From Photorhabdus laumondii subsp. laumondii (GTDB taxonomy: Bacteria > Pseudomonadota > Gammaproteobacteria > Enterobacterales > Enterobacteriaceae): a DNA stretch of 64,000 bases. Made by a program: the position numbers and the translations under genes. Position 1 is the first letter of the stretch; the number at the start of each line of letters is the position of its first letter. The notes beneath the pieces are model-generated. The model saw nothing but the letters and a program-made list of their open reading frames with translations, was not told where the DNA came from and made no database searches. Below are positions 24,839 through 30,104 of this stretch, in pieces. The DNA is taken from NCBI RefSeq assembly GCF_003343245.1, contig NZ_CP024901.1:4464001-4528000 (forward strand), read 5' to 3'.

Positions 24839-25294
24839 ATGATTGCACAGATTGCGGCGCAAACTCCTTGGCTCTGGTTCTCTTTCGGCGGCTTACTGTT
24901 AATTGCAGAGCTTCTGGGAACTGGCGGCTATCTGTTATGGACGGGCATAGCCGCTATCGTTGTTGCGTTTGTCACCTGGCTGCTACCAGGAATAGATTGG
25001 GAATGGCAAGGCATTTTGTTTGCCACTCTGACGCTGCTTTCTGCAATGCTATGGCGCTACTGGTTACGTCGCCGCCCATCAAAAGGCGGCGATACCCTGA
25101 ACCAGAAAGAGCACCAGCTCATCGGTATCCGAGCCAAACTGACTACCGATACTGAAAATGGTTACAGCCGGGTCAAGCTAGCTGATGGAAGCTGGCGAGT
25201 TCACTGTAATAGTGAACTACCAGCCCACACCGAAGTAGAAGTGATCGCTGTTGATGGCATTACCCTGAAAGTAAAACCGGTCAGTTCTCAGTGA
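24839..25294 (+). CDS. ybbJ: NfeD-like membrane protein YbbJ
   Basis: A 151-residue protein with three N-terminal membrane helices (residues 8-75) and a C-terminal OB-fold (residues 90-150, [10 protein letters not shown] to ITLKVKPV), typical of NfeD partners of SPFH proteins. Placed immediately after qmcA, so the two likely work together. Its last codons overlap the cueR stop on the opposite strand by 7 bp. Confidence 0.94.
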
Positions 25295-25689
25295 TGAGAG
25301 CAACAACCCGATAAATGATCTATGATGGGGCATGCAGCCCCGTCATCTCCAGGGCACTCTTCCGCTAAGGATAACAATTTACTTCTTATTTTCTGCAACT
25401 CTTCAATCGCCTTTTCTATTTCAGCCACTTTATGCAATGTTGCCACTTTTACATCAGCACTATGACGATTGGGGTTGCGAAATAACACTAAAAACTCACG
25501 GCATTCATCAAGCGTAAAACCGACCTGTTTTGCCTGACGTAACAGCGTTAGTTCATCAATATGTTTCTGCTGATAATAACGGTAGCCGTTATCCCCCCTT
25601 TCCGGCGGTGTAATCAGATCCTTTTCTTCATAAAACCGGATAGCTTTGCTGGTAAGACCGGTTTTTTGGGCAATCTCACTAATGTTCAT
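25288..25689 (-). CDS. cueR: Copper-responsive MerR-family regulator CueR
   Basis: A 133-residue MerR-type activator with an N-terminal winged helix ([21 protein letters not shown]), a dimerisation coiled coil, and the Cu+ ligands Cys112 and Cys120 in CPGDDGAAC. Ser77 marks the monovalent-metal subgroup. An additional CCSHH tail is typical. It is divergent from copA, the gene it activates; in E. coli the two are separated by other genes. Confidence 0.96.
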
Positions 25690-25698
25690 TTTTTCCCC

Positions 25699-25729
25699 TT
25701 GACCTTACCCTTGAGGGAAGGTTTAACCT
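25699..25729 (+). promoter_or_regulatory. copA promoter with CueR operator
   Basis: The -35 TTGACC (25699-25704) and -10 TAACCT (25724-25729) are 19 bp apart, the over-long spacer of MerR-family promoters. The dyad ACCTTACCC...GGGAAGGT (25702-25722) fills it, closely matching the E. coli copA operator. Confidence 0.88.
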
Positions 25730-25830
25730 CCCCAACAAGTCAGAAACTCACTTGAACTGTGTAGATATTCATCACCAATTATCACACAGGTATGAAGAAT
25801 AATTACATCACTATGTGTTAGGAGTTTTTT

Positions 25831-28566
25831 ATGTCATACACAACTATTTTAACCTTGCAGGGACTCTCCTGTATGCACTGTGTTAACAGTGTGAAAAAGG
25901 CACTAGCAAATCGTACAGATGTGGAACAGGCGGATATTACAATTGATTATGCCAAAATCATCGGTAAAGCCTCTACTGAATCATTAATCGAAACCATTCA
26001 AGCAGCCGGTTACGATGCGATGATTGCCAGCCAACCCGATGTTGAACTGACACTCTCTGGACTGAGTTGCATGCATTGTGCAGGTACGACACGTAAAGCG
26101 CTGGAGGCCGTAGATGGTGTTATCGCCGCAGAGGTGAATACCGAAAAAGCTAAAGTTTACGGTAAAGCCGATGCGGATACCTTGATTGCCGCTGTTGAGC
26201 GGGCGGGTTACCATGCAAAACTCGCTTCTGGTCAAAACTCCCCAAAATCTGAGCCGCTGACATTACCTGCTTCAAACAGACCGGAACCTTTGGCAGCGGC
26301 AACCTCCTCTGTTCCGGTCGAAAAAGCTGACGTATCCGTTGTGAGTGACAGCAATGAGAGCATCCAGTTGCTGTTGGATGGCATGACTTGCGCCAGTTGC
26401 GTGAATAAAGTTCAGAAAGCATTACAAGGTGTTGACGGCGTGGAAAATGCCAGAGTGAATCTTGCTGAACGCAGCGCTTTAATTACCGGCAGTGCCTCAC
26501 CAGAGGCACTGATTAAAGCAGTAGAAAAAGCCGGGTATGGCGCAGAACTGATTCAGGACGAAACTAAGCGGCGTGAACGCCAGCAACAAGTTTCTGACGC
26601 TAATATGCGCCGTTTTCGTTGGCAGTCAGCATTAGCCTTAGTCGTCGGTATTCCCGTAATGGTGTGGGGCATGATGGGCGATAATATGATGCTCACACCT
26701 GAAAACCATCATATCTGGCTGACTATTGGCGTTATCACGCTTGCCGTGATGATTTTTGCCGGTGGTCACTTCTATCGTAATGCGTGGCAAAGCCTGAAAA
26801 ACGGCAGTGCGACAATGGACACATTAGTGGCATTGGGAACGGGTGCAGCCTGGCTTTACTCCATCAGTGTCAACCTATGGCCAGATATTTTTCCACCACA
26901 AGCCCGTCATCTCTATTATGAAGCCAGCGCGATGATTATTGGTCTGATAAACCTGGGGCATGCTCTGGAACAACGTGCCCGTCAGCGTTCTTCAAAAGCA
27001 CTGGAGCGTCTGCTGGATCTGACACCACCGACTGCCCGTGTGGTGACAGAAGATGGCGAAAAAGAGATACCGCTGGCTGATGTCAAACCCGGCATGACGT
27101 TACGTCTGACAACCGGTGATCGTGTTCCCGTTGATGGTGAAATCATTCAAGGTGAGGTTTGGATAGATGAGGCAATGCTCACCGGTGAGCCGATTCCACA
27201 GCAAAAAACCAAAGGCGATAACATTCATGCCGGTACGACGGTGCAAGACGGTACAGTGCTGTTTACTGCCGCCGCGGTTGGCAGCCAGACAACATTAGCT
27301 CGAATTATTAAACTGGTCCGTCAGGCACAAAGTAGTAAGCCCGAAATCGGTCAGTTAGCAGATAAAATTTCCGCCGTATTTGTTCCTGTTGTTGTCGCCA
27401 TTGCCCTGATTGCCGGCGCTATTTGGTATTTCGTTGGGCCAGCACCACAGATTATGTATTCATTGGTCATTATTACCACTGTGTTGATTATTGCCTGTCC
27501 CTGTGCCCTTGGGTTGGCAACCCCTATGTCAATTATCTCTGGTGTCGGCCGGGCAGCAGAATTCGGGGTACTGGTGCGAGACGCGGATGCGCTGCAACAA
27601 GCCAGCACCTTGGATACCCTTGTTTTCGATAAAACTGGTACGCTGACAGAGGGTATGCCTCAAGTGACTGATATCCATACTTTTAATGGGTACAGTGAAC
27701 AAGAAGTATTGCGGTGGGCTGGCGCACTGGAACAAGGTTCTAACCATCCATTAGCCAAAGCCATTCTTGCCAAAGCCAAAGGGCTGACGTTGCCGCAAGT
27801 TGAACAATTCCGTACTCTGGCTGGACTCGGTATCAGCGGTGAAGTGAATGGCACAACCTTGTTGCTAGGTAATCAAGCTTGGCTAGAACAAAATCAAATT
27901 GATACGCAAGAATTAAAATCGTTGATCGCTCAACAGGCAGAACAAGGCATCACACCGGTTCTTCTGGCAGCAGGAGGTCAAGCGGCGGCAGTGCTATCTA
28001 TTCGCGATCCACTGCGTGAAGATACTATGACTGCATTGCAGCGATTACATCACCAAGGCTACCGTTTAGTGATGTTAACCGGTGATAACCCAGTGACTGC
28101 CAATGCGATTGCCAAAGAAGCGGGTATTGATCAAGTGATTGCAGGTGTATTGCCTGATGGCAAAGCTGAGGTAATTCAGAAACTGCAAGCAGCAGGTCGC
28201 AAGGTTGCTATGGTGGGGGATGGTATTAACGATGCTCCAGCCCTAGCGCAAGCTGATGTAGGCATTGCAATGGGTGGTGGTAGTGATATCGCCATTGAAA
28301 CCGCCGCAATAACGCTGATGCGCCATAGTTTACATGGCGTGGCTGATGCGGTTGAGCTATCCAAAGGCACTCTGCGCAATATGAAACAGAACCTATTAGG
28401 CGCATTTATCTACAACACATTGGGGATTCCGATCGCCGCTGGTGTGCTCTATCCCTTTACTGGAACCCTGTTAGATCCGGTAGTCGCAGGTGCGGCAATG
28501 GCGCTCTCTTCAATTACGGTAGTGAGTAATGCTAATCGATTACTGAGGTTTAAGCCTAAGTTCTGA
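25831..28566 (+). CDS. copA: Cu+-exporting P1B-type ATPase with three metal-binding domains
   Basis: A 911-residue inner-membrane pump. Three N-terminal HMA domains have CxxC pairs at 14/17, 80/83 and 187/190; E. coli has two. The transport CPC is at 556-558, the phosphorylation Asp600 in DKTGT, and MVGDGIND and the eight-helix core are present. A slippery heptamer and pseudoknot follow the second HMA (see 26241-26319). Transcribed from a CueR-controlled promoter divergent from cueR. Confidence 0.97.
26241..26319 (+). other. Programmed -1 frameshift site in copA (slippery heptamer and pseudoknot)
   Basis: The zero-frame codons TCC-CCA-AAA contain C-CCA-AAA (26241-26247). After a -1 slip the next codons are ATC and the stop TGA at 26250-26252, giving a 140-residue product holding HMA 1 and 2. 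Five bases later comes stem 1, GCCGCTG (26253-26259) with CAGCGGC (26294-26300). Stem 2 is GACCGGAAC (26279-26287) with GTTCCGGTC (26311-26319). The stems cross, so it is an H-type pseudoknot at canonical spacing. E. coli copA has CCCAAAG at the equivalent place and releases the CopA(Z) chaperone. Confidence 0.75.
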
Positions 28567-28692: not shown

Positions 28693-29010
28693 TCAAATCA
28701 TCACATCTCCGACAATGTTTTCATTCAGATCGATAACGTGCCCCGTATTGTGCTGCATAGCCTCGTCCAATTCCTTAGGTAAATCACTCACATGGTACCC
28801 GACCTGAATGTCGGCAGACAGCAAGTCAAGGAATGCCCCAATTAACTGGTCTTCGTATTCAACGCTTACATTAGTCACAACAACCTCACCATTACGCAAC
28901 TCAAATACCAATGTGCTACCGGTATCAACACTCAATACCTGACGGATGAACCAAGGTAACGTGATCTGACCTTTAGGAATCAATGTTACCAGCTCATAAA
29001 TATCTGACAT
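28693..29010 (-). CDS. PrlF/AbrB-type antitoxin without a partner toxin
   Basis: A 105-residue protein with a SpoVT/AbrB DNA-binding swapped hairpin (VTLIPKGQITLPWFIRQVL, GSTLVFELRNGEVVVTN) followed by FLDLLSADIQ and a C-terminal acidic tail ending NENIVGDVMI. The layout resembles PrlF, antitoxin to YhaV. No toxin gene lies downstream: only 126 bp separate its stop from copA. It is either an orphan antitoxin or a plain transcription factor. Its start codon is 15 bp from an ERIC element. Confidence 0.7.
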   Translation of the reverse strand: MSDIYELVTLIPKGQITLPWFIRQVLSVDTGSTLVFELRNGEVVVTNVSVEYEDQLIGAFLDLLSADIQVGYHVSDLPKELDEAMQHNTGHVIDLNENIVGDVMI

Positions 29011-29291: not shown

Positions 29292-30104
29292 ATGGGACGA
29301 CTGATTAAACACCTTACCAATATATTAGGAATCAATGCCCTCCACCGTTATCCCTATCCTGCTCACGATATTACACTGGCAGGTGATAGACATTTGCATC
29401 TGGTAGGCAGTATTCATATGGGTACGAAAAATATGTTCCCACTTTCAGAAATATTGATAGAACAGCTTAATCAATCCGATACATTAATCGTGGAAGCAGA
29501 TATTACTCAGGCAGACTCCCCATTTCATGATGAGTTTCAATCATATCACCGTATCGAACAACGTTTATCTTCTGAGATGTATCAGAACTTTCAGGACTGT
29601 TGCAATGAAATCCAACAGCAAGAAGAATTCCTCAATCTATTGCCCTCATGGCAAATCGCTTTAATTTTACAAGCTGGACAAGCACAAAACCTTGGATTAC
29701 ATCCCCAATACGGTATCGATTATCAGCTACTAAATGCAGCCAAAGCTCTAGGAAAAACGATTATTGAACTAGAAGGTACTGAATCACAAATTAATTTACT
29801 TAATCAAATTCCCAATAACGGCCTGCCACTATTAGAAGATACATTAACCCATTGGCACGCAAATGCCCGTGCTTTACAAACCATGATCAGTTGGTGGATG
29901 GACTATCAACCTAAACAGCAAGAACATGCTCTACCAACAACTTTCAGTAAAGAGATATACCAACTATTGATGACTGAACGTAATAAACAATGGAATAAAC
30001 ATTTACGGGGATTACCTGCCGGTCGATACCTCGTTGCTGTTGGCGTTTTGCATCTGTATGGTGAAGGGAATTTGCCCAAGATGCTGGCAGAAAAACAGCA
30101 TTAA
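29292..30104 (+). CDS. ybaP: TraB/GumN-family protein YbaP
   Basis: A 270-residue protein with the TraB/GumN fold: GSIHMGTK at about 38-45 with the conserved His, later YGIDYQLLNAAKALGKTIIELE, and the C-terminal GVLHLYGEGNL motif. E. coli has ybaP next to copA, as here. The biochemical role is unknown; family members are proposed metal-dependent hydrolases. No clear signal peptide in this start, which has only a weak ribosome site (GGAGCTC). Confidence 0.85.
   Translation: MGRLIKHLTNILGINALHRYPYPAHDITLAGDRHLHLVGSIHMGTKNMFPLSEILIEQLNQSDTLIVEADITQADSPFHDEFQSYHRIEQRLSSEMYQNFQDCCNEIQQQEEFLNLLPSWQIALILQAGQAQNLGLHPQYGIDYQLLNAAKALGKTIIELEGTESQINLLNQIPNNGLPLLEDTLTHWHANARALQTMISWWMDYQPKQQEHALPTTFSKEIYQLLMTERNKQWNKHLRGLPAGRYLVAVGVLHLYGEGNLPKMLAEKQH

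Follow-up and report, generated by a model that had tools for sequence, protein, structure and literature searches.

The closest described system is the copA gene of Escherichia coli, in which -1 frameshifting gives rise to a 70-aa copper chaperone, a phenomenon established according to three publications (PMC5009743, PMC9548414, PMC7558416), the last of which also reports stimulation of the E. coli copA frameshifting by the nascent chain. In PMC4066793, C_CC.A_AA.A and C_CC.A_AA.G appear among the frameshift-prone motifs picked in E. coli, C_CC.A_AA.G being the best one (54% with the IS3 pseudoknot). According to PMC9548414, the claim for human ATP7B was later contested. In E. coli K-12 we found the same element as described below after the first of the two HMA domains, at a gene for which RefSeq annotates a second product; this agrees with the earlier note, which had E. 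coli copA slipping at CCCAAAG after its first HMA, frameshifting there being established in the literature. Similar elements are said to have been noticed in copA of other bacteria in the 2017 work of Meydan.

A probable frameshift signal in copA of Photorhabdus laumondii

The window (the whole stretch of 64,000 nucleotides from P. laumondii subsp. laumondii that was analysed) contains copA (25831..28566, + strand), which encodes a 911-aa Cu(+)-exporting P1B ATPase with three HMA domains (NF007952 CopA, 1690.9 bits vs a cut-off of 1316) and is divergent from cueR (25288..25689, - strand), encoding a Cu(I)-responsive regulator of the MerR family (TIGR02044, 183.9 bits vs a cut-off of 147.4). 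On its other side, an ORF of 105 aa, AbrB-like by eye (28693-29010, - strand), lies between copA and a TraB-like gene (29292-30104). HMA1 (25849..26016, Pfam, 2.1e-8) and HMA2 (26047..26214, Pfam, 1.3e-9), both with the CMHC motif, form the chaperone side, and the membrane-proximal HMA3 (26374..26538, Pfam, 4.0e-19; CASC) is kept by the ATPase. Directly after HMA2, as the earlier note had proposed, lies the slippery heptamer C_CCA_AAA (26241..26247), read in the copA frame. Reading the zero frame to 26247 and then slipping by -1 adds a single codon (ATC) before the TGA stop (26250..26252), and the predicted product (25831..26252) has 140 aa, with two Pfam HMA stretches in residues 1-139 and NSPKI as its C-terminus. 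Both of its HMAs are of the CxxC chaperone type, and it matches the CopZ model NF047957 in two stretches (105.3 vs a cut-off of 85 bits).

A spacer of 5 nt separates the heptamer from a pseudoknot with two covarying stems: S1 of 7 bp, formed by GCCGCTG (26253..26259) and CAGCGGC (26294..26300), and S2 of 9 bp, formed by GACCGGAAC (26279..26287) and GTTCCGGTC (26311..26319). The S2 5' arm lies within the S1 loop and the S2 3' arm past S1, with loops of 19, 6 and 10 nt, i.e. the arrangement is of the H-type. The one-codon extension, the crossing of the two stems and the spacer agree to the base with what had been claimed from the sequence at the outset, and the two-HMA product of 140 residues stands as a prediction from the reading frame and Pfam. 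An in-phase heptamer, a covarying H-type pseudoknot and an early -1 stop are all characteristic of copA-type programmed -1 frameshifting; the single HMA of ~70 aa expected for its product is replaced here by two HMAs and 140 aa. Because one to three HMAs precede the same signal across the loci analysed below, we interpret the 140-aa product as a putative size variant of the copA type.

We therefore consider it highly probable that the window copA carries a copA-type programmed -1 frameshift signal, at which the slip would release a two-HMA product of 140 residues, likely a chaperone, the rest of the ribosomes making the 911-aa pump. In this model, the pseudoknot (26253-26319) would make ribosomes on copA pause; some of them would shift from C_CCA_AAA to CCC_AAA and terminate after one further codon, the outcome being a soluble protein whose two HMAs bind Cu(I), and the non-slipping ribosomes would continue to the pump with all three HMAs. 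Slipping at this site is very likely, since the E. coli counterpart of this element is proven in the literature, and we infer its occurrence and rate here from that analogy. The short protein would most likely serve the pump as a cytosolic copper chaperone, as suggested by its homology to E. coli CopA(Z) and because the genome yielded no separate CopZ: a search with PF00403 at E<=0.001 identified only copA (three domains) and one open frame of 769 aa (one domain), and no stand-alone HMA gene.

Conservation of the heptamer and the stop

The family sample comprised 149 genomes, approximately one per genus, in 90 of which a copper ATPase was matched at E<=1e-100; 83 genus-level copA loci, with 61-100% identity to the window copA, were examined. 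A slippery heptamer is present just upstream of the last HMA in 81 of them (CCCAAAG in 43, CCCAAAA in 37, AAAAAAA in one), and among the 78 genus-level loci in the normal frame the -1 stop follows one codon past the slip in 77, and after 18 codons in L105. The heptamer was found in 12 of 12 Photorhabdus genomes and in 29 of 30 Xenorhabdus genomes (28 by script and L190, with a mismatch in the S1 5' arm, by eye); in another Xenorhabdus locus, L196, as many as 24 codons precede the -1 stop. The more distant copA of genome G111 (51% identity) has an in-phase CCCAAAG followed by a different S1, self-complementary by eye, and no clear S2.

Three copA genes have no slippery heptamer, namely L099 (genome G128) and L111 (G103) among the 83 genus-level loci and L199 (G170) among the 30 from Xenorhabdus, hence the heptamer is dispensable. 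The loss in L111 looks recent, because CCCAAAA is kept in three other species of the same genus. A stand-alone CopZ was looked for in these three genomes and none was found.

Beyond these loci, copA genes of Photobacterium and Vibrio (L010-L012) have no CCCAAAR in phase. Of seven further copper ATPases taken from the family sample, the five counted (L267, L268, L270, L271 and L273; L269 and L272 were left out) have no CCCAAAR in the ORF. A strict pattern of heptamer plus S1 matched in 33 of 394 order-sample and 5 of 274 class-sample genomes, and 11 of these matches (7 and 4, respectively) lie outside the family of the window; the pattern misses copies with an altered S1, so outside-family relatives with other stems may escape it. 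Leaving aside G507, G472 and G468, the remaining eight outside-family matches could be read at the locus level, and none of them has an HMA motif or DKTGT within ~3 kb, both of which are present in the copA controls L229 and L216; these matches were dropped as copA signals. Chance matches to the pattern occur also within the family (L232, L242).

Evidence that the pseudoknot is maintained as RNA structure

The window contains 355 heptamers of the form X_XXY_YYZ per strand, in any phase. A strict pseudoknot (S1 of at least 7 and S2 of at least 9 perfect pairs in H-type order) was found downstream of only the one at 26241, and relaxation to at least 6 pairs in S1 and at least 7 in S2 added one heptamer on the + strand and six on the - strand. 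A scan of 25600-26700 against Rfam gave no match above the gathering score, the two weak matches to snoRNA families falling far below theirs. It could be argued that the linker DNA is conserved for its protein sequence, with no RNA signal, as it encodes the recurring residues S-P-K-S-E-P-L-T ... A-A. However, when the linker was recoded synonymously 10,000 times with the codon usage of the gene, the strict pseudoknot never reappeared. When 82 sequences (the 81 genus-level loci with the signal and E. coli K-12) were compared each with its own synonymous null, the best pseudoknot was at or under the 5% tail in 76 and beat all 200 rewrites in 48; six (L088, L095, L100, L126, L129 and L145) fell short of 5%, in L095 probably due to a linker longer than the tested 87 nt.

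Compensatory changes in the stems point in the same direction. When alignment A1 (82 sequences: the window, 80 loci and E. coli K-12) was scored against the stems of the window copA, 89.6% of cells were paired (96.0% in S1 and 84.6% in S2), and 11 of the 16 pairs, eight of the nine in S2, showed changes on both sides, with 54 such cells, counts that lean upward owing to the relatedness of the sequences and to the use of one of them as the source of the structure. On each of five measures all 500 shuffles scored lower, and sliding the structures by 1-3 columns reduced the paired fraction to 20.1-55.5%. The outer pairs are weak, with frequent unpaired cells at the outermost pairs of S1 (columns 13-81, 23 of 82) and S2 (columns 60-103, 64 of 82), and at columns 68-95 (24 of 82). 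By eye, the clearest single cases of covariation are L112, L166 and L162; in L112 (G148), AAAAAAA replaces CCCAAAR and both stems are altered in a compensated fashion. With the heptamer conserved and the stem changes compensatory, relatives bear out the signal on both counts that the earlier note had named for checking it. Conservation for protein alone is thereby refuted at the sequence level and hardly credible, the more so as the frame-swapped lineages described below keep the DNA signal though the reading frame through it changes.

The signal as a border between HMA domains

What is new in the present analysis is the regularity in the distribution of HMA domains around the signal: one to three precede it and exactly one follows. 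Among 123 signal-bearing loci, a single HMA motif was found downstream (within up to 230 residues) in all 123, and the upstream number is one in 64, two in 55 and three in four loci, with HMAs counted by CxxC, so that degenerate copies without this motif are missed, and with loci that are not all independent (the pairs L008/L141 and L009/L153 need care). The last HMA has CASC in 123 of 123 loci, and 168 of the 186 upstream HMAs have CxHC or CxKC; CASC is absent among the 12 commonest upstream motifs, which cover 183 of the 186. In a tree calculated from 67 columns, the last HMAs, including those of Vibrio and Photobacterium, cluster together (SH-aLRT 100), separate from all remaining HMAs. As judged from these comparisons, the signal appears to act family-wide as a fixed border, with one to three HMAs on the chaperone side and one distinct HMA on the pump side. 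In one locus, L307 (G952), HMA1 is located in its own open frame of 108 aa, apart from HMA2 and the pump, the frame break lying upstream of the signal.

The earlier note took the extra HMA of the window copA for a gain on the chaperone side. This is not supported, as close relatives show losses by recombination. Two upstream HMAs are present in 11 of 12 Photorhabdus genomes and in 24 of the 28 Xenorhabdus loci counted. The only Photorhabdus locus with one, L178, is HMA1-like for ~20 residues and HMA2-like thereafter, a chimera best read as a deletion by HMA1/HMA2 recombination, i.e. a loss; the single HMAs of L202, L203 and L205 resemble HMA1 except for their HMA2-like ends, and that of L207 is mostly HMA1-like. 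The direction visible near the window is therefore loss. Farther away, 36 single HMAs (L116-L150 and L168 from E. coli K-12), which belong mostly to the E. coli clade (L119 is an exception), are all closer to HMA1 of the window, while those of L103, L113 and L165 are closer to HMA2 and L161 is a tie. This division of the singles into HMA1-like and HMA2-like suggests differential loss from an ancestor with two upstream HMAs, the deep root being weak in the domain tree, and E. coli itself may have lost one upstream HMA. Gains on the chaperone side occur too, because four of the 123 loci have three upstream HMAs. The fewest changes in the upstream number on the 82-row tree, in which the branches to L123 and L168 (E. 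coli K-12) are of zero length, are about eight (nine as printed, with L158 miscounted due to a CxxC upstream of the start codon).

Frame-swapped and chaperone-only relatives

The most interesting outcome of this analysis are relatives in which the two products have changed places or parted. In L161 (G004), L167 (G107) and L165 (G115) the heptamer is in the phase of the chaperone and the spacer is one base shorter, because of which the chaperone terminates unaided (ending in AAPKPRR, AAPKLRR and SSPKLSR, respectively) and the pump is in the -1 frame, entered through CCC_AAA. The stems are retained, and in none of the three loci did any of 200 synonymous rewrites do as well. G004 and G107 differ by a dS of 0.56, with dN/dS of 0.148 for the pump and 0.22 for the chaperone, and their pump frames run without a stop for 795 and 794 codons. 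When 392 genomes of the family were searched by pattern, the swapped spacing turned up in five: these three, G104 with a decayed pump, and G879, where the match is not in copA. Three other species of the genus of G115 have the normal frame. Protein clusters with the same short ends number five for PKLRR/PKPRR and three for SSPKLSR, one of them identical to the query in each case. A sequencing error behind the swapped frames is unlikely, as G004 and G107 share the swap, the pump frames are open and clusters with the same ends exist. We also noted three clusters of 73-aa chaperones (P0009-P0011) that stop directly at SPK, i.e. right after the slip codons.

In the swapped lineages it is likely the pump that would be made by -1 frameshifting. 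The main alternative is re-initiation before the last HMA: candidate start codons in the pump frame precede it in the swapped loci, above all in G115, where an ATG and a GTG preceded by GGAAGAAG would both leave the last HMA whole. Some room is also left for relaxed selection on copA in the lineage of G004 and G107, as the gene is damaged in the relatives G104 (L264, pump in fragments) and G026 (L266, chaperone part absent and pump frame broken). In the window itself, the short HMA product could in principle come mainly from shortened transcripts or proteolysis, with only a minor contribution of slipping. In favour of such a source, the title of Drees 2017 on E. coli copA includes the words "Differential transcript formation". 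This explanation accounts neither for a heptamer that is in phase and followed by a pseudoknot, nor for the stop after a single codon or the swapped lineages; we regard it as very improbable.

In other relatives only the chaperone is left. The place of copA is taken by a gene for a single HMA of 65-67 aa in 5 of 5 sampled genomes of genus g25, 2 of 2 of genus g17 and 1 of 5 of genus g26 (L274-L278 and L289-L291), flanked by TraB-like and cueR-like genes (named by eye); it ends near the expected position of the heptamer and the pump part is absent. With dN/dS of 0.04-0.12 among the five g25 genes (L274-L278), this chaperone is under purifying selection without the pump. A different copper ATPase, at 43-44% identity, is encoded in G024 and G016, the two chaperone-only genomes looked at in this respect.

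These genes are relevant to yet another explanation, namely that slipping serves to lower the output of the pump (attenuation), one pump being lost per slip, and that the two-HMA protein is a by-product, which would fit the three signal-less copA loci in genomes with no separate copZ. We consider attenuation unlikely, as opposed to it there is at least one CxxC HMA upstream of the signal in 123 of 123 loci, g25 keeps the chaperone alone under purifying selection, and both parts are constrained in the swapped pair G107/G004. Moreover, the short copA product, in the 2017 work of Meydan, reportedly helps E. coli survive copper.

Taken together, the evidence inclines us, with some reserve, to a joint reading in which the copA signal would be an evolving border between a growing and shrinking chaperone array of one to three HMAs and a one-HMA pump. 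A one-base shift after the heptamer would have swapped the roles in two lineages (G004 with G107, and G115), and elsewhere the pump would have been deleted and the chaperone become a free gene, a natural series that begins with a recoded fusion and ends with separate genes. What has been a lone textbook case, E. coli copA, would thereby become a device of the whole family, with a rule that can be tested: the pump has one private HMA and the chaperone has everything upstream of the signal. The swapped lineages offer natural tests of slipping, as a pump with the last HMA should need a ribosome slip or a re-start, and their genes may be annotated as broken, hiding a working copper pump.

Comparison with known systems

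A full-text literature search, covering titles and the beginnings of abstracts, returned no description of a two-HMA or swapped copA, and an earlier mention is possible. As in -1 frameshifting of the dnaX type, which involves a different gene and is characterized by A_AAA_AAG with a hairpin and, upstream, an SD-like element, the product of the slip is the shorter one and ends soon past the slip site. The short product of the window resembles stand-alone CopZ in scoring above the cut-off of the CopZ model; unlike CopZ, which is a separate gene, it would arise from recoding inside copA and has two domains in tandem. Multi-domain chaperones made in this way could bind two or more Cu(I) ions or hand copper between their own domains, and a two-HMA chaperone poses directly the question of what tandem HMAs serve for. 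The mechanism of frameshifting is already known, the two-domain product representing a variant. The likeness to E. coli copA and CopA(Z) extends to the gene, the class of the heptamer (CCCAAAG there, CCCAAAA here), the positions of the stems and the stop after one codon, whereas the product has 140 aa and two HMAs here as opposed to 70 aa and one there, and the pump keeps three HMAs here and two in E. coli.
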